A DNA stretch of 64,000 nucleotides, taken from the NCBI RefSeq assembly GCF_009498235.1, contig NZ_CP044205.1, positions 4,155,389-4,219,388 on the forward strand. Direction: 5' to 3'. A program made the position numbers and the translations under genes. Each line of letters opens with the position of its first letter. Positions within the stretch are counted from its first letter, which is position 1. This stretch comes from Candidatus Methylospira mobilis (GTDB taxonomy: Bacteria; Pseudomonadota; Gammaproteobacteria; Methylococcales; Methylococcaceae). Under the pieces are notes generated by a model. That model made no database searches and was not told where the DNA came from. It saw only the letters and a program-made list of their open reading frames with translations. Shown here piece by piece: positions 40,313-64,000 of this stretch.

Positions 40313-40912
40313 TTACTTGACAGCCGATTCCCATTTCGTCTGGTTCGCCTTGAGTTTGGGATGCGAAACAAGCAGATGCCATACCACCGCCTGAAACGCT
40401 TCCGAGTGCGGCGTGATGTTATCGATATTCACCGTCGGCACGATGACGCAAGCATCGGCCACCTGCCCGGTGTATCCTCCGTCGCGGCCCACTACGCCCG
40501 TTACTTTGGCGCCCACGGATTTGGCGTATTTCAGCGCCTCCACCAGATTCGGGCTGATATTTTTTTCCAGATTCCCGCCGCCCACGGAAAGTATAAACAG
40601 CGCGTCTTTCGCCGTCAGCTTGCTTATTTTCAGCCATTCGACAAAAATCGTGGCCCAGCCCTCATCATTGGTCCGCGCCGTCAGCTCCGATACGTTATCA
40701 GTCGGCGCATAGGATTCGATCCCGACTATCTTGCGAAAGTCATTCACCGCATGGGAACAATTGCCGGCACTGCCGCCAACGCCCAGAAAGAAAATCCGCC
40801 CGCCATCGATTTTAACCACGGCCAGCAGATCGGCCACTTTTTCAATAGCGTCTGCGTCGATTTTTTGAATAATCTCAACGGCCTCGTTCAAATGCTGCTG
40901 TGCGTAGCTCAT
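40313..40912 (-). CDS. gmhA: Sedoheptulose-7-phosphate isomerase
   Basis: An SIS-domain isomerase making D-glycero-D-manno-heptose 7-phosphate, first step of activated heptose synthesis. 199 residues; FLGVGGSAGNCSHAVNDF is the Ser-rich phosphate-binding loop and SVGGGNLEKN the second loop. The C-terminal ITPHSEAFQAVVWHLLV matches GmhA. It overlaps hddC by four bases (ATGA). A related phosphosugar isomerase is possible, but the neighbours support heptose. Confidence 0.88.
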   Translation of the reverse strand: MSYAQQHLNEAVEIIQKIDADAIEKVADLLAVVKIDGGRIFFLGVGGSAGNCSHAVNDFRKIVGIESYAPTDNVSELTARTNDEGWATIFVEWLKISKLTAKDALFILSVGGGNLEKNISPNLVEALKYAKSVGAKVTGVVGRDGGYTGQVADACVIVPTVNIDNITPHSEAFQAVVWHLLVSHPKLKANQTKWESAVK

Positions 40913-41613
40913 GCTTCACCCTTCTCTAAAAAATAGGTTTCTGTTTCTTTCAGGCCGTTATGCGAGCCTATTTCGTAAAAACGCTCATGTACCTCGTAAC
41001 CGGCAAGCTGTCCATCAAGCGAAAGCGCGTGGTAGACCTCAGCCAGATCGAACGCCTGCCCGTCGGGGTAGCTGTCCAGCACCTTACCGGCAAGCACCCC
41101 CAAGCCATAATCGATGTAAGCCATGTCCGGTTTCGGAGCGTGCTTATTGTATTCCACCAGCTCGCCTTCGCGGTACAGAACGTTGCTTTTATCCCAGCGA
41201 TCTCCATTTTCAAGCACCGTCATCAATGCGGTTTTGTTGCTTGCGAAAAACGCTTGCTCAATGGGAGCAAACGCTACCGGCAGAAACGAATCGCCGTACA
41301 ACACAAAAAAACGCTCGCCAAGTAAAGGCAGGGCCTGCTTCAGCGCGCCTCCGGTTCCGAGCAGGACAGGTCCGTCCGGTGAGTAAGTAATGTCCAGGCC
41401 GAATTTAGAGCCGTCCCCGACGATCGCCTGTATCATTTCGCCCAGGTAGCCTATGCACAATACAATACGCTGCAGTCCCTGGGCGCGAAGATAACGCAAC
41501 TGCCTGATGATAAACGGCTCTCCCGCCACATCCACCAAGGCTTTGGGAATTGTTTCGGTAATCGGGCGCAAGCGGGTCGCCAGTCCGCCGGCAAGGATGG
41601 CTACCGGCAGCAT
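40909..41613 (-). CDS. hddC: Heptose-1-phosphate nucleotidyltransferase
   Basis: 234 residues starting with the nucleotidyltransferase signature ILAGGLATRLRPITETIPKAL. HddC adds GMP or another nucleotide to D-glycero-D-manno-heptose 1-phosphate. YGDSFLPV holds the metal-binding Asp. It overlaps gmhA by four bases and the kinase by one. No GmhB-type phosphatase was found nearby, so dephosphorylation at position 7 must come from elsewhere. Confidence 0.8.
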   Translation of the reverse strand: MLPVAILAGGLATRLRPITETIPKALVDVAGEPFIIRQLRYLRAQGLQRIVLCIGYLGEMIQAIVGDGSKFGLDITYSPDGPVLLGTGGALKQALPLLGERFFVLYGDSFLPVAFAPIEQAFFASNKTALMTVLENGDRWDKSNVLYREGELVEYNKHAPKPDMAYIDYGLGVLAGKVLDSYPDGQAFDLAEVYHALSLDGQLAGYEVHERFYEIGSHNGLKETETYFLEKGEA

Positions 41614-42596
41614 CAGGATGACATCACTACTTTGGCGCCCTCGAAATCGAAGCGAAAACGCACCTCCTCCAATCCCGCCCCCGCCATGGCGTGGCGCAAT
41701 TTATTCCGGTCGTGCGCCAGGAACATCAGGAATCCGCCACCGCCCGCTCCGACTAGTTTACCGCCTACGGCGCCGTTTTTCATACCCAAATCATACCAAT
41801 CGTCAATTTTGGGATTGCTCATCCCACCCGACCGGCGTTTCTTATGCTCCCAATGCTCGTGCATCAGCTCGCCGAACAGCCCGGTATTCCCGGACTCCAA
41901 GGCTTCCTTGCTGCGATATCCCAGATCTTTTACATAATGCAGATTGTTTAGCATATCGCTATCGTTCTTTTGAGAGCGCACCTGCTGATCTTTCAATATT
42001 CCGCTGGCGCTACGTGAAAAACCGGTGAAAAACAACAACAGGTTGTCCTCGAGATCAAACATGGTGTCCATGTTTATCCCCAAGGGTACGGCAGTCACTT
42101 TGTCGTCTTTATGAAAGGTAAAACAGGTAACACCACCCACTGCGGCGATATACTGATCCTGTTTGCCGATCGGTTCGCCAAGTCGGTCTATTTCAATATG
42201 GCATGCCAGTTCCGCCAGCTCTTCCTGATGCAGGTGGCGCTTGCGGTGAGTGTATAACGCCTTCAGCAGCGCGGTGGTAAAACTCCCCGAAGACCCCAGG
42301 CCGGTACCCGCGGGTATATCCGCCAGAGTGGTTATTTCCACTTGCGGCGTTTTAAAACCCAGCATATGCAGGGCTTCACGAATGATGGGGTGTTTCACGT
42401 CGCTTATTTGCTCGACGTGCTCGAGCTGCGAATACTTCAGATAAACGCCTTCCGTGAACGGCCTCATTACATTGACATAGACATATTTGTCTATCGCGGC
42501 GGAAACCAGGAACCCTTCATGATCGCGATAATAAGAAGGCAGGTCGGTGCCGCCCCCGCCAAGAGTGATGCGTAACGGACTACGCGCTATGATCAT
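41613..42596 (-). CDS. hddA: D-glycero-D-manno-heptose 7-phosphate kinase
   Basis: A GHMP kinase of 327 residues. N-terminal RSPLRITLGGGGTDLPSYYRD is the HddA signature, PAGTGLGSSGSFTTALL the ATP-binding glycine loop, and LVGAGGGGFLMFL the third motif. It phosphorylates the heptose at C1. Overlap of one base with hddC and of 17 bases with the upstream oxidoreductase indicates one transcript. The gene order kinase-nucleotidyltransferase-isomerase supports the pathway. Confidence 0.87.
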   Translation of the reverse strand: MIIARSPLRITLGGGGTDLPSYYRDHEGFLVSAAIDKYVYVNVMRPFTEGVYLKYSQLEHVEQISDVKHPIIREALHMLGFKTPQVEITTLADIPAGTGLGSSGSFTTALLKALYTHRKRHLHQEELAELACHIEIDRLGEPIGKQDQYIAAVGGVTCFTFHKDDKVTAVPLGINMDTMFDLEDNLLLFFTGFSRSASGILKDQQVRSQKNDSDMLNNLHYVKDLGYRSKEALESGNTGLFGELMHEHWEHKKRRSGGMSNPKIDDWYDLGMKNGAVGGKLVGAGGGGFLMFLAHDRNKLRHAMAGAGLEEVRFRFDFEGAKVVMSS

Positions 42597-43590
42597 AACC
42601 CGACTCCTTGTAAACTGCCTGGACCACTGTCAATGCTTCATACGCGTCGCGCAGCCCGGCTGCCGGATTGCGGTCCAGACGAATATCCTGATAAAACTCG
42701 GCTATCTCTACTGTCCAGGAGTCGTCTCCCATCGGATATTCCCACGAGCTTGTTTCCGGCGGCCCCATTTCCGGCAGCATTTTGTAATAAGTCAGGCGCT
42801 CCACACCGTAGCTGCCGCCCAGACCGGCTAAATCAAGCTTGCCGTTCCGTCCGTATATTTCCATCGAAAACAGGTTTTTCCATTCGGTACATGATGCGTG
42901 CAAGAAAGCAACCTGCTGCCTGGGCGTCTTGAGTATCATGAATCCATTGTCATCGACCGGCATATCCCAGTAATAGGTATGGGCGAAACCTTGTACTTCA
43001 CTGAAATCGCCAAGGAACCAGCGCGAAAGATCGATCAAATGAGGTCCCTGATCGATCAATTCGCCGCCACCGGAAAGTGCCGGATCCGCACGCCACTCCT
43101 TGTCGTAACCGATTCTGGCTCCGTGTCCGTAGCGCGCCCGGATGAACATCAGATCGCCCAGTTCACCGGAATCGACGATCTCTTTAGCCTTGCGCAGGGC
43201 TCTATGATAGCGGTGATTAAAACCCACATGCACTTTGATATCATGCTCTTCAGCCGCTGCAATCACCGGCTCCAGTTCTGTCGGCGATCGCGCCGCCGGC
43301 TTTTCGACAAGGACATGCTTTCCGGCCTCTATAGCTGCCAGCGTAATAGAAGCGAGCGAATCATGCAGTGTGGCAATCATCACGATATCCACTTCCGGCA
43401 ACGCAATCAGCGTGCGCCAATCGCTAAAGACCCTGGCTTCCGTTCCTTTTGCCAGGTTTTCGGCTCGCTTGACGTCTATATCAGCGCACGCAACCAATCG
43501 TCCGCCGTTACCAAGGGCTTTGGCTCGTTTTTGTCCGATCAAGCCGCACCCTACAATACCCACTCCAAACGGTTTATCCACGTTACTCAC
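42580..43590 (-). CDS. Gfo/Idh/MocA-family oxidoreductase
   Basis: 336 residues with an N-terminal NAD fold (GIVGCGLIGQKRAKAL), the conserved EKP (VLVEKPAAR) and a C-terminal substrate domain with GGGELIDQGPHLIDLSRW. Such enzymes oxidise or reduce sugars and sugar nucleotides. In this operon it may modify the activated heptose or its derivatives. The substrate is unknown. Overlaps hddA by 17 bases and the SDR by four. Confidence 0.85.
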   Translation of the reverse strand: MSNVDKPFGVGIVGCGLIGQKRAKALGNGGRLVACADIDVKRAENLAKGTEARVFSDWRTLIALPEVDIVMIATLHDSLASITLAAIEAGKHVLVEKPAARSPTELEPVIAAAEEHDIKVHVGFNHRYHRALRKAKEIVDSGELGDLMFIRARYGHGARIGYDKEWRADPALSGGGELIDQGPHLIDLSRWFLGDFSEVQGFAHTYYWDMPVDDNGFMILKTPRQQVAFLHASCTEWKNLFSMEIYGRNGKLDLAGLGGSYGVERLTYYKMLPEMGPPETSSWEYPMGDDSWTVEIAEFYQDIRLDRNPAAGLRDAYEALTVVQAVYKESGYDHSA

Positions 43591-59134: not shown

Positions 59135-59914
59135 TTATGCTGCGCCGTTACGCCAGGCTGATAGACAGGAATCCATTTCGGCCCAAGTAAAAAACCCCCT
59201 CATTTCGTAATAAAGCACGCCATCATGGGGCCTGATATTTAAACGGGCAGATAAAACAGGCTGCAGCGCCTGTTTCCCGCTGACCAGATAATGAAAAACG
59301 GCAAAAGGGAAAATGCCCATCCAGGTTACGGCCTGCGATGGGTATCCTAAACAATTACGCAGGAAACGAAAGCGATTTCCCCATGGGATTGCTGTTTCTT
59401 CGACCGGACCATTCAGAGGCAGGGGATGAAGTACCTTGAAGAACGGCCCGACGCAACCATGGGCATTATAGAGAGGGAACTGCCTGACGTAATCGGTCAT
59501 GCTCCGCCTTTCGGCAATAACCACCGTGATGGCGTGGAGCACGTCATGATCGTGATGCCCCCCCTCCCAAGCCGGGACGCAGATCGAAACCACTTGAGTA
59601 AAACCAGCGAGCCAATTATCTATCCAGCCGTCGGCAGCCGCCAGATGTTCATGCAGTTTACCGTCGGGAATAGCCACCCTATCTCCGGCAAAAAACACAT
59701 CCTGAGGCTGTACGCCCATGCGCTGCAAAACAGACAGCGATTCACGATTGCGCCGCTGCGGCGATACACCGTTAAAACCACCGTCGGTTAGATATGCACA
59801 ACATACTCTATGGCCTTTTTCCCGTTCATCGACGATTGTTTGAAATACGCCAAACTCATCATCCTGATGCGCAAAAAGAAATAGCGCCGCCGGTTCCGTA
59901 CATGTGATTTTCAT
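59135..59914 (-). CDS. PIG-L-type de-N-acetylase
   Basis: 259 residues with the metal-binding motif H16-x-D18-D19-E20 (AHQDDE) and the second set EGGHHDHD (His120 to Asp124). LmbE/PIG-L enzymes remove acetyl groups from N-acetylglucosamine-type substrates. In this cluster, next to a GNAT-like protein and an acyl carrier protein, it may free an amino group for a different acyl group. Twelve bases separate it from the GNAT-like gene. Confidence 0.88.
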   Translation of the reverse strand: MKITCTEPAALFLFAHQDDEFGVFQTIVDEREKGHRVCCAYLTDGGFNGVSPQRRNRESLSVLQRMGVQPQDVFFAGDRVAIPDGKLHEHLAAADGWIDNWLAGFTQVVSICVPAWEGGHHDHDVLHAITVVIAERRSMTDYVRQFPLYNAHGCVGPFFKVLHPLPLNGPVEETAIPWGNRFRFLRNCLGYPSQAVTWMGIFPFAVFHYLVSGKQALQPVLSARLNIRPHDGVLYYEMRGFFTWAEMDSCLSAWRNGAA

Positions 59915-59925
59915 TGCCCTGCACC

Positions 59926-61002
59926 CTAGAAATAGTCGAGATCGCCAAGGGTTAGATGCATAGCCCCATCAAGACCCAATGACTTATCCGCGCCCGCCCT
60001 GACAAAAATGGGAGTTCCGTGAGGCAGCAATTTTTCCGGTATGCCCATGAGCGGGAAACCGACGCACTTGCGCGAGTAGGCGCTGCATGGGTTTATCATC
60101 GTGAACAAGGTATCCGCTTTGGCAGCGCTAGCCTTTGCAATCAGCCAAAATCTCAATGCGACATAAACAAAAAGCGGCGCATCCGGATCAATCAGGAAAT
60201 CCATCAGGACGAAATGGTTCAGACTACCGAGCTCCATTTTTCGCAATACTACATAGCCCAAAAATCGGCCTCGTCTGTCTATGCGATAAACTGTTGCCGG
60301 CCACAGCGGCGCATCATTGAACCGCCATTTCAAAAATTCATTTGTTCGGGCGAGAAGAGGTCCGGACAGACGCAGAGATTTCTCTGACAGAGTATCCAGC
60401 TCGCTATCACTAATCGGTTTTCCTGCAATTGACAAGCTCGCGGCGGAGCTGACCAAGTAAGCAGCGCCTTCGATCAGCCGACGAAATGGAGCAGTGAACC
60501 AATCCAATGCATCTATTCTTTTGCCGATAACCGAGCAAAGCAACCCGGCAAGCCGCACTGGAAAACCATAGGCCTGCAGTGAAAACGGATTTGGAAAAGC
60601 GAGCAACTTGCTGTAAAGCGGAAACGTGCGTTCGTTCGAAGTATGGAAAACCAGATCGTATTTCCCTATATTACCGCACGCCTTCGTCAGCTTGATGAAA
60701 TTAACCGGCGTAGTACGATGCTCGCGGTTAATGAGCAAGTCCATTACTGAAGCGATATGGTATGATTTTACCGCTGTGCGCAAGGTACGCGGCTGAATCA
60801 GCGCGCGTCCGACTATCCGGTCATTTTCATTCAAACTGACATAACTGGAGACCCCAAAAGGCGACTCCAAATGCTTCCACCTGATATGACACGGATCGGT
60901 GGTTGTAATCGAGTCGCCATATTCCTGTTGCGACAGATCCAGATACCCTTCCATATCGGTTTCCGCGAAATTTTCGACTGATATCTGCGCCATGATTGTC
61001 AT
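59926..61002 (-). CDS. GNAT-like acyltransferase of the polysaccharide locus
   Basis: 358 residues. The N-terminal half has the pattern of GNAT/FemAB acyltransferases (VENFAETDMEGYLDLSQQEYG, then DRIVGRALIQPR and SVMDLLINREHR, and YDLVFHTSNERTFPLYSKLL). The C-terminal half is a second similar domain (RFLGYVVLRK, FVLMDFLIDPD). Two-domain proteins of this type transfer acyl or aminoacyl groups to amino-sugars or lipids. An acyl carrier gene lies 69 bases upstream, which suggests acyl-ACP as donor. Function is inferred from neighbours. Confidence 0.7.
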   Translation of the reverse strand: MTIMAQISVENFAETDMEGYLDLSQQEYGDSITTTDPCHIRWKHLESPFGVSSYVSLNENDRIVGRALIQPRTLRTAVKSYHIASVMDLLINREHRTTPVNFIKLTKACGNIGKYDLVFHTSNERTFPLYSKLLAFPNPFSLQAYGFPVRLAGLLCSVIGKRIDALDWFTAPFRRLIEGAAYLVSSAASLSIAGKPISDSELDTLSEKSLRLSGPLLARTNEFLKWRFNDAPLWPATVYRIDRRGRFLGYVVLRKMELGSLNHFVLMDFLIDPDAPLFVYVALRFWLIAKASAAKADTLFTMINPCSAYSRKCVGFPLMGIPEKLLPHGTPIFVRAGADKSLGLDGAMHLTLGDLDYF

Positions 61003-61070: not shown

Positions 61071-61316
61071 CTAAATCAATGCGTGTTGTCTGAGGATAGC
61101 GAGTATTCTTGGCATGGAATCCGCTTCCGCCATATCGGTAATAGTCGCAATCTTCCCGTCGAAAAGCTTATCCAGAGCAACAAGAATACTCAGTTGCCCA
61201 AGCGAATCCCATTTTTCAATCTCCTCGGCTTTGGACTCAGCGCCGAGCTGCCCCGGTTTTAGCTCAAGAGCGCTTTCTACAACTGAAATAACTTCGGATT
61301 CGAGTTTCGTTGACAT
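61071..61316 (-). CDS. Acyl carrier protein
   Basis: 81 residues from ATG 61316; the longer frame adds 49 unrelated residues. The phosphopantetheine-acceptor Ser38 lies in KWDSLGQL. Acidic, four-helix character. It is not the fatty-acid AcpP (no acyl-synthesis genes beside it), so it is a special-purpose carrier tied to the GNAT-like and deacetylase genes. Upstream is 666 bases of non-coding DNA. Confidence 0.92.
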   Translation of the reverse strand: MSTKLESEVISVVESALELKPGQLGAESKAEEIEKWDSLGQLSILVALDKLFDGKIATITDMAEADSMPRILAILRQHALI

Positions 61317-61982: not shown

Positions 61983-62699
61983 TTAATACGGATTCATAGC
62001 CAGATATGTCTCGGTGTAACACACTACCATCCCAAAGCGTTCCTCCAGACTGATTGCCCCCTCGGCACCCAGCTTTCGCAGCAGGGGCAAGTGCGCTTTT
62101 AGCTCCGCAGGCAAAGGCCATTCCCGGCGCCCTACTTTTTCAACGGTGAAGAAGGTTTCCCTGGCGACTTGTAAAATCCTGTCTACGCTGGACAGCGACA
62201 ACACTGGAAAAAAGAAACGCCCTCCCTCTTTAAGGTATTGCGGCGCACTACGTATAATCTCGGCAACAAGATCAACACCATCCTCCCCGGTTTCGCAAGG
62301 AACGCCTTGGAACCAGGGAGAAACATCAGCGACGCTCTGTGAAATACCGGAAATATCATCGACAATAACCTCGAACTTCATTCCCACCCAGGGCTCGAAC
62401 AACGTACCGCAACGCACCTCGGCCGGACAGGCATAACGTTCGAAATTATCGCGGCTGCATTTTACCGCCGCTTCACTCAAATCCGACGCGGAGACTTTCG
62501 TCTTTATCAAGCCCTGCTGGTACAGCGCAACTCCGACGACTCCGGTCCCGCACCCCAGATCCAGCAGGTCAACCGGCTCGCCCACAGTACTGCCGACCGC
62601 CTGTATCAACAGACTGGTAGTCATGTTCGGTGTAAATACGCCCGGAGCGGACGCCAACGTTATTTCCTTACCGGGACCAAGTGCAAATTTAATTTCCAT
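61983..62699 (-). CDS. HemK/PrmC-like small methyltransferase
   Basis: 238 residues with LDLGCGTGVVG (residues 46-56) and VSASDLSEAAVKCSRDN. In place of the NPPY loop of N-methylating enzymes it has VIVDDISGI, so the substrate class is different or O/C-directed. It stands behind the split Rieske pair and may methylate the same product. 83 bases separate it from the upstream gene. Confidence 0.75.
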   Translation of the reverse strand: MEIKFALGPGKEITLASAPGVFTPNMTTSLLIQAVGSTVGEPVDLLDLGCGTGVVGVALYQQGLIKTKVSASDLSEAAVKCSRDNFERYACPAEVRCGTLFEPWVGMKFEVIVDDISGISQSVADVSPWFQGVPCETGEDGVDLVAEIIRSAPQYLKEGGRFFFPVLSLSSVDRILQVARETFFTVEKVGRREWPLPAELKAHLPLLRKLGAEGAISLEERFGMVVCYTETYLAMNPY

Positions 62700-62781: not shown

Positions 62782-63339
62782 TTAATTATTCAAAATCGAA
62801 TCTTTTGTTCTTGGAATTGGCAGCTTTAATTGCTTGTTCGCATCGCCAACCCTATCGGACTTGCCGTAAAAGTCGATAAAATTCGAGTCTATCGCAAGTT
62901 GCCTGCGAATCTTTAATGGCAAATCCTCATCCCAGTTTACATCATTCCACCTTGTGATCACCTTGCAAATGAGATTCTTGAACGGATAGAAAATTCCCGG
63001 CACATCGAGAGAATAGTTATTAACCAACTCGGTCGTTCTCGGGTCTATTTCGTTATATATCATTTCAAGCCTGGAAATAACGCCGAATGGTAAAGCGTCA
63101 ATCACCAGCACATTATCGTTTTTAATCGACGTCATCGTATGCAGGCAATTAACGTATATAGGCAGAAAAGGCAGTTTTACCGTTGTTCTGATAAACGCAA
63201 CCTTCGAGTCCTCATACATCATCTTCGCGTTACCGAATTGCCTATGAACGTAATATAGATGCTCGTGATCCCAGGTATTCCACAGACACACGACTTTGCT
63301 TACGTTAACAACCCTTGTAATCGTAAAGTTAATAATCAT
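62782..63339 (-). CDS. Putative mononuclear-iron subunit of a split Rieske oxygenase
   Basis: 185 residues. Near the N-terminus N21-T-W-D24-H-E-H27-L-Y-Y-V-H32 contains D-x2-H-x4-H, the spacing of the iron ligands in Rieske oxygenases (naphthalene dioxygenase Asp205, His208, His213). The remainder has the beta pattern expected of the SRPBCC catalytic domain (IYVNCLHTMTSIKNDNVLVI). Its gene overlaps that of a Rieske protein by four bases (ATGA). I infer that they form one oxygenase made of separate chains. A plain SRPBCC lipid-binding protein is the alternative. Confidence 0.6.
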   Translation of the reverse strand: MIINFTITRVVNVSKVVCLWNTWDHEHLYYVHRQFGNAKMMYEDSKVAFIRTTVKLPFLPIYVNCLHTMTSIKNDNVLVIDALPFGVISRLEMIYNEIDPRTTELVNNYSLDVPGIFYPFKNLICKVITRWNDVNWDEDLPLKIRRQLAIDSNFIDFYGKSDRVGDANKQLKLPIPRTKDSILNN

Positions 63340-63635
63340 TCGGATATCTCCAGCGTATTATCTGAAATCAGCTTTACCTTGTATTTTTTAGCCTTGACAT
63401 CAATCCTGCGGTTAATACAATGATGCTCCGTCAAGTGAAAATCCCAGTCATGCCAATAGCAATTTAATTTCCCATCAGCCAAAACCAGCGGCCCGCCGAA
63501 ATGAGGACAGAATGTGCTTATGGCAAAATATTCATTTTCGTGTTTATAAACAAGTAATTCATCTACAAAAACATCAGAGAAAAATTTATGCTGATCCTGT
63601 TTCAGGACGCTCAAGTCCACGCGCTCAATTTTCAA
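63336..63635 (-). CDS. Rieske 2Fe-2S protein
   Basis: 99 residues with the Rieske motif C43-P-H45 and C59-Y-W-H62, so all four cluster ligands are present (C-x-H-x13-C-x2-H). Such a stand-alone domain is either a ferredoxin for an oxygenase or its split N-terminal half. The four-base overlap with a gene that carries an iron-site motif favours the second. A reductase was not seen. Confidence 0.9.
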   Translation of the reverse strand: MKIERVDLSVLKQDQHKFFSDVFVDELLVYKHENEYFAISTFCPHFGGPLVLADGKLNCYWHDWDFHLTEHHCINRRIDVKAKKYKVKLISDNTLEISE

Positions 63636-63868
63636 TTCTGATCTCCACTACTATTTCGCATAAACAAATAAAGCCAACCATTAGCCGCTTCACGATTAAG
63701 TACGCATCCACTGCCGATCGGGAATATTCTTCCAGGGTATAGAATCGAGGTGGCGGTGAGGTCGCCGGACCGCAGCGGCAAGCGCCTGCATAACGGCCAC
63801 TATCAGGACTTCCTGTTCACGATTGATGTTAGTTTGCAAACAACGGGGAACGGCGCGAAGCGCCTTGA
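63636..63868 (-). other. Gap between the SDR end and the Rieske gene
   Basis: 233 bases. A 5-bp stem GGCGC-TTC-GCGCC lies right behind the SDR stop on the minus strand (about 63850-63866) without a T run. No gene recognised; the rest shows no feature I can defend. Confidence 0.35.
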
Positions 63869-64000
63869 TCACACTCCGCCGTCGATATTGATTGCACTAC
63901 AATTTACGAATGGTGATTTTATCAGGAATTCTACAGCATTTGTAATGTTTATCGGATCGCCCAACTTACCGGATGGTATTGAATCTATAAGCTTTTTCTG
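63869..64000 (-). CDS. C-terminus of a short-chain dehydrogenase/reductase (partial)
   Basis: The last 43 codons of a gene entering from the right: KLGDPINITNAVEFL, then SAINIDGGV and a TGA at 63869. The pattern rGdPxdIxxAVxFL...I.VDGG is that of 3-oxoacyl-ACP-reductase (FabG)-like enzymes. This fits the acyl-carrier and Rieske genes downstream and would reduce a keto-acyl or sugar intermediate. The NAD loop and catalytic residues are outside the window. Confidence 0.8.
   Translation of the reverse strand, partial: QKKLIDSIPSGKLGDPINITNAVEFLIKSPFVNCSAINIDGGV

Follow-up and report, generated by a model that had tools for sequence, protein, structure and literature searches.

Two short genes lie one after the other on the minus strand towards the end of the window, by which is meant the whole 64,000-nucleotide stretch of DNA that was analysed. 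The original prediction had placed a pair of genes at 62782-63635 with an overlap of four bases, and both open reading frames (ORFs) are found there, in different frames, with the ATGA at 63336-63339 serving as the stop of the first and the start of the second. One encodes a Rieske chain of 99 residues, the other a chain of 185 residues proposed to be its catalytic partner. The features of the pair and its neighbourhood, all on the minus strand, are as follows:

L010 6941-7918, past the end of the window: ketoacyl-ACP synthase III (KASIII), before the dehydrogenase (PF08541, E 7.8e-32)
63869..64000, continuing past the window (L010 6258-6956): FabG/VioR-like short-chain dehydrogenase, upstream of the pair (PF00106, E 1.7e-34)
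63643..63646: GGAG, 7 bases 5' of the TTG of the Rieske gene (by eye)
63336..63635: Rieske chain gene, 99 residues, TTG start, cluster ligands C43, H45, C59 and H62 (ORF list; PF00355, E 1.2e-9, 38.4 bits)
63348..63351: GGAG, 8 bases 5' of the ATG of the 185-residue gene and within the Rieske gene (by eye)
63336..63339: ATGA overlap, Rieske gene stop and 185-residue gene start
62782..63339: gene for the proposed catalytic (SRPBCC-like) chain, 185 residues, ATG start (ORF list; VanA-type profile aligned to residues 5-39)
63244..63279: N21-x2-D24-x2-H27-x4-H32 signature of the 185-residue chain, with a proposed bridging Asp and two proposed His iron ligands, in register with a 30-sequence VanA-type profile
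62923..62928: E138-D139 of the 185-residue chain, 107 residues after H32, D139 being a candidate third iron ligand
61983..62699: methyltransferase, 238 residues, downstream of the pair (PF05175, E 2.6e-14)
61071..61316: acyl carrier protein (ACP), 81 residues from an internal ATG, with a DSL motif (TIGR00517, E 0.015, below cut-off; start and motif by eye)
59926..61002: putative acyltransferase (weak GNAT; PF13527, E 0.051, below cut-off)
59135..59914: PIG-L type sugar N-deacetylase (PF02585, E 2e-12)

Across the 18-kb locus that holds the pair (L010), the minus-strand order runs from a GtrA-like protein through an epimerase, a FAD/GMC-like oxidoreductase, the KASIII and the FabG-like reductase to the Rieske and 185-residue chains, and on through the methyltransferase, ACP, weak GNAT, PIG-L deacetylase and another methyltransferase to glycosyltransferases in the window. 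The surroundings had been called a polysaccharide/acyl locus, a description borne out by the KASIII, ketoreductase, methyltransferase, ACP, deacetylase and glycosyltransferase genes on either side of the pair. Also within the polysaccharide locus, window positions 40313-43590 hold ORFs that by eye resemble a heptose-phosphate isomerase, a nucleotidyltransferase and a kinase (GDP-heptose type).

The GC content of the Rieske gene (39.0%) and of the 185-residue gene (40.3%) is set against 50.5% in the reductase before the pair, 53.4% in the methyltransferase after it, 47.5% in the ACP gene and 52.3% in the window. Because each start has a GGAG of its own and both genes differ from their neighbours in GC content, they look like two translationally coupled genes acquired jointly, not like a broken gene; the low-GC pair is probably an imported cassette.

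The Rieske chain and the signature of its proposed partner

The stretch CPH...CYWH, originally taken for a Rieske cluster, is one: C43-x-H45-x13-C59-x2-H62 gives the 99-residue chain the CxH...CxxH of a Rieske [2Fe-2S] domain, in agreement with its PF00355 match. Two further models stayed below their cut-offs, PF22543 (a soluble Rieske-type ferredoxin model) at E 1.5e-4 and the NCBIfam model nirD_assim_sml far below at 20.3 bits (cut-off 74.65). The x13 spacing is tighter than the x15-47 stated for Rieske proteins in the available text of PMC12445004. Other standalone Rieske ORFs are present in the same genome and in plasmids, 29 plasmid records matching the chain at E<=0.01; no partner of the 185-residue kind was seen beside the Rieske ORFs in the four of these 29 that were inspected, and a scan of viral contigs with the Rieske chain found no relative. 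One standalone ORF, on a plasmid of Ciceribacter thiooxidans (L025 4938-5423), is 40% identical over 62 residues and has the x13 spacing too; by eye it adjoins GST-like and DoxX-like ORFs, with no partner of the 185-residue kind.

The catalytic domain of Rieske oxygenases opens with the signature N-x2,3-D-x2-H-x4-H. The original prediction had pointed to D-x2-H-x4-H in the second chain, and D24, H27 and H32 are confirmed, preceded by N21. In 200,000 shuffles of the chain the shorter motif appears anywhere in 0.43% and the full signature in 0.076%; this hallmark of the oxygenase alpha subunit is not exclusive to it, Band-7 proteins having D-x2-H-x4-H as well. An [EQ]D pair lies 109-129 residues past the second His in all 30 VanA-type sequences, and E138-D139 of the 185-residue chain lies at 107, a spacing that arises by chance in 11% of shuffled tails.

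At E<=10 the chain matched no Pfam or NCBIfam family, including the catalytic-domain models PF00848, PF19112 and PF19298, and no Pfam cyclase or SRPBCC family. Its best and only match to a solved structure has an E of 0.73, and a single-sequence AlphaFold2 model (pLDDT 33.7, pTM 0.31) is uninformative on the fold. The earlier label of an SRPBCC-like chain may therefore be kept as putative: the motif and the profile alignment described below agree with it, whereas Pfam finds neither an SRPBCC nor an oxygenase domain.

Profile comparisons, look-alikes and the search for relatives

Reference Rieske oxygenases were taken from related genomes by means of PF19112 (VanA-type) and PF00848 (Ring_hydroxyl_A-type), which gave 30 usable distinct ORFs of 31 for the former and 28 of 31 for the latter; all 30 of the one set and 23 of the other 28 contain D-x2-H-x3..5-H. 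From the 30 VanA-type catalytic domains a profile was made and applied, with filters off, to the 185-residue chain, 1,000 shuffles and 1,290 stop-to-stop ORFs of at least 100 codons, the latter drawn from the window and further loci, with the oxygenase loci and three others surrounding the query pair excluded beforehand. The chain scored 8.8 bits (E 0.096 over that set). The 1,290 ORFs include the query ORF three times (10.3, 8.8 and 8.8 bits), and the best of the other 1,287 reached 6.7 bits; scores of at least 8.8 bits were obtained by 8 of 20,000 shuffles and by two of the 1,000 in the first set (11.9 and 9.7 bits).

The alignment spans residues 5-39, includes the strand before the motif and sets N21, D24, H27, H32 and R33 on oxygenase columns; since it begins at residue 5, the 185-residue gene would start at the domain boundary. 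Masking H27 and H32 takes the score from 8.8 to -2.1 bits and masking residues 5-19 takes it to 2.8, while 121 of 5,000 sequences in which residues 20-35 were kept and the rest shuffled still reach 8.8 bits. The same register was returned by hhalign at E 0.016, with a probability of only 2.9%. Neither the Ring_hydroxyl_A-type profile (rank 515) nor the combined profile (rank 29) picks the chain, and its pairwise alignment with the fused Rieske oxygenase of the same genome (L011) is not significant, 169 of 2,000 shuffles being as good.

Part of the same stretch turns up in quite different proteins. Four Band-7/SPFH-type proteins from related genomes of the same order (L004, L005, L047 and L048; L004 matches PF01145 in Pfam at E 2.1e-8) show 50-57% identity with the 185-residue chain over its residues 12-37 or 12-39, a likeness that includes D-x2-H-x4-H-R-x-F-G-N and ends at residue 39. 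On the VanA-type profile they score 6.0, 3.9, 1.8 and 0.5 bits. Their matches, at E 0.007 to 0.2 per genome, are roughly what chance would supply across hundreds of genomes, and the likeness reflects either chance or a common short motif. Because the motif stretch occurs in Band-7 proteins, which are not Rieske oxygenases, it can sit in another fold, and the margin of the profile is thin. The original prediction had looked to a profile comparison with the oxygenase alpha family for a decision; the VanA-type result favours the catalytic-domain reading by that thin margin, with the register and the rank above 1,287 ORFs on one side and, on the other, the low score, the 6.0-bit look-alike and the negative outcome with the remaining profiles.

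Relatives of the chain were sought widely. In 398 genomes of the phylum a protein search at E<=0.001 found its own copy only. Among 38 genomes of the family, eight matched at E<=1, namely its own (the true copy and one weak match) and seven with one weak match each, and among 311 genomes of the order four matched at E<=0.01, one being the chain's own copy, one riddled with stops and two confined to residues 11-43. Apart from the four Band-7 proteins, the weak matches are short frames of 9-79 codons, so that no relative emerged from 747 look-ups of genomes of the same phylum (398 + 38 + 311, overlapping). Searches with tblastn gave no relative in viral contigs, nor in genome contigs, where both tests were weak, pattern-limited scans (one was restricted to exact 8-mers, the other ran over unintended windows), and plasmids and phages returned just short or low-identity matches at E 2-8. 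The motif pattern matched nine times in 369 genomes of the class, once in the chain itself and eight times elsewhere, none of the eight being judged a relative from its frame; two of them are by eye HisH and a sulphate transporter. The pattern of the pair matched viral contigs once, within a phage tape-measure-like ORF.

Comparison with known systems

Rieske and catalytic domains are normally fused on one chain in Rieske oxygenases. The VanA-type enzymes (PF00355 plus PF19112) share with the 185-residue chain N-x2-D-x2-H-x3,4-H, often followed by R, and the register of residues 5-39, and their late [EQ]D has a candidate counterpart in E138-D139; they combine the two domains in a single chain, in open frames of 335-535 codons, and the window chain has diverged beyond the reach of Pfam. 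A two-chain version inside a polysaccharide/acyl locus had been predicted to be unusual, and two ORFs do replace the single chain; the split has a precedent, however, in the caffeine N7-demethylase NdmC/NdmD/NdmE of Pseudomonas putida CBB5, where, in the available text of PMC4408171, NdmC is without a Rieske domain and that domain is located on NdmD. As proposed for the window pair, a catalytic non-heme iron subunit is there served by the Rieske domain of another chain, yet in NdmCDE this domain is fused to a reductase (NdmD) and the GST-like NdmE is required, whereas the window's Rieske chain is alone, 99 residues long, and overlaps the gene of its proposed partner. These further NdmCDE-type features are absent near the pair, no reductase or GST gene being recognised by eye in the 18-kb L010. 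NdmCDE is the only split Rieske oxygenase among the literature matches listed, none of which concerns Rieske genes in KASIII/ACP acyl-sugar modules. The split arrangement is rare but known, and the stand-alone Rieske chain sets the window pair apart from its precedent.

The gene neighbourhood has a counterpart in the viosamine island of Pseudomonas syringae pv. tabaci (vioA, vioM, vioT, vioS, vioB, vioR and acp), for which the available text of PMC3927599 gives N-(3-hydroxy-1-oxobutyl)-2-O-methylviosamine for flagellin as the proposed product. Island and L010 share a KASIII (vioS), a 3-oxoacyl-ACP reductase (vioR), an ACP and a methyltransferase (vioM, 241 residues; L010, 238), but no Rieske protein appears in the available main text of PMC3927599. 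With its putative acyltransferase L010 brings these parts of a viosamine-type acyl-sugar module together, the ACP and GNAT matches being below cut-off; a vioA-like gene was not noticed by eye in L010.

At E<=1e-60 the KASIII was found in its own genome only among the 311 order genomes, and 304 plasmid records contain a KASIII match. Five of these were inspected and one, pBGF3 of Burkholderia glumae, includes a Rieske oxygenase; none was listed in the stretches shown of the other four, where annotation may be incomplete. The pBGF3 KASIII is top-ranked among plasmid records, with 46% identity to that of L010, and its island (L040 10859-16887) encodes flagellin, FliD, VioA, KASIII, ACP, an SDR and an acetyltransferase, together with a 356-codon fused Rieske oxygenase (PF00355, E 8.8e-16; PF00848, E 3.5e-10). 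A second KASIII-like stretch in the island lies in two overlapping frames. Like L010 with its proposed oxygenase, pBGF3 sets a Rieske oxygenase within a KASIII/ACP/ketoreductase/acyltransferase sugar module, so that an oxygenase in such a setting exists at least once in fused form. It differs from L010 in its fused enzyme of PF00848 type, which by eye has Glu at the position of the bridging Asp (ALEPYHIGAVH), and in the VioA aminotransferase of its island.

The FAD/GMC-like oxidoreductase and the 427-residue epimerase-like protein (L010 7922-10800, beyond the window) occur together in two genomes at 61/57% and 54/52% identity. The oxidoreductase matches in five of the 311 order genomes at E<=1e-20. 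Since the loci with the 61% and 54% matches hold no significant KASIII, SDR, Rieske or 185-residue match, the two genes belong to a separate module. A third GMC-like locus (L036) has a weak KASIII match (E 6e-4).

Proposed function and competing explanations

We propose with moderate confidence that the two chains form a Rieske non-heme iron oxygenase of two subunits, with a short acyl group on a surface sugar as its target. Electrons go between neighbouring subunits in Rieske oxygenases. Here the 99-residue chain would carry the [2Fe-2S] cluster, and the 185-residue chain would be a minimal catalytic domain in which H27, H32 and probably D139 would hold a single iron and D24 would serve as the electron bridge; an NAD(P)H reductase encoded elsewhere in the genome would reduce the Rieske chain, which would pass electrons to the iron of its partner for the activation of O2. 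The substrate would most likely be a short acyl group that the adjacent KASIII, ketoreductase and ACP assemble for transfer to an amino sugar of a surface glycan, and the product a further hydroxylated acyl group. By comparison with known modules, hydroxylation of this acyl group is the probable reaction, other glycan substrates being possible. As the two domains are on separate chains and the Pfam catalytic-domain models do not match, the pair is not filed as a canonical member of the Rieske oxygenase family, yet it probably works like one.

The company the pair keeps could also be read differently. SRPBCC proteins are frequent partners of KASIII/KR/ACP modules, and the 185-residue chain might be an iron-free SRPBCC aromatase/cyclase or lipid-binding protein that handles the ACP-bound KASIII/ketoreductase product, the Rieske protein being an independent electron carrier and a neighbour by accident, a view with which the missing Pfam oxygenase match and the weak profile score would agree. 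We regard it as unlikely, for the two His residues have the spacing of ligands and N and D are present as well, the profile score falls below zero once both His are masked, the ATGA overlap joins the chain to a Rieske gene of equally unusual GC content, and Pfam offers no cyclase or SRPBCC match either. Less probable still is that motif and adjacency both arose by chance, with the Rieske protein serving another oxygenase as an ordinary ferredoxin and the 185-residue protein having an unrelated fold. The rarity of the motif and of the profile score argues against coincidence, as do the overlap and the common GC content; the orphan status of the chain, its poor AlphaFold2 confidence and the standalone Rieske ORFs elsewhere in the genome and in plasmids are what such a coincidence would lead one to expect, and the Band-7 proteins, which show the motif stretch in another fold, cease to resemble the chain after residue 39. 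That a once-fused oxygenase gene was split at its domain boundary by a frameshift, and is dead or a sequencing error, is very improbable: the 185-residue frame has no stop in the 6 codons that precede its ATG, so that a small indel there could join both frames and an old frameshift is compatible with the sequence, but each gene has its own GGAG and start, a direct fusion of the frames would put about 42 residues between the last Rieske ligand and the catalytic strand, where the fused L011 enzyme of the same genome has 69, the genome is a single contig rated 100% complete, and both frames are otherwise open.

Should the two-subunit oxygenase be real, the covalent link between the halves of such enzymes would be dispensable, the halves could be purified, titrated and swapped separately, and an oxygenase would join the toolkit for the acyl decoration of bacterial surface sugars; should it not be, the 185-residue chain would be an unplaced protein of an acyl-sugar cluster. 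A more tentative suggestion, which we put forward as a possibility on the doubtful side, is that the pair is free-standing, with a ferredoxin-sized Rieske protein and a catalytic subunit of ~185 residues made by tandem translation, oxygenating, during the synthesis of a glycan, a short acyl chain that is bound to ACP or linked to a sugar; its catalytic subunit could be among the smallest of its kind, and the pair a natural system for exchanging the electron and chemistry halves.

As to the electron supply of the proposed oxygenase, no reductase gene was recognised by eye in the cluster, and a search of the genome for PF14759 (a BphA4-type domain) found nothing at E<=0.001. Five PF00175 reductases are encoded elsewhere in the genome. 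One locus, L110 (G000:C1:2418341-2418652), resembles by eye the reductase of soluble methane monooxygenase, which would point to a methanotroph as the host. In two others (L109 and L113) a flavin reductase is joined, by eye, to a plant-type [2Fe-2S] part, and these could be the electron donors to the Rieske chain.
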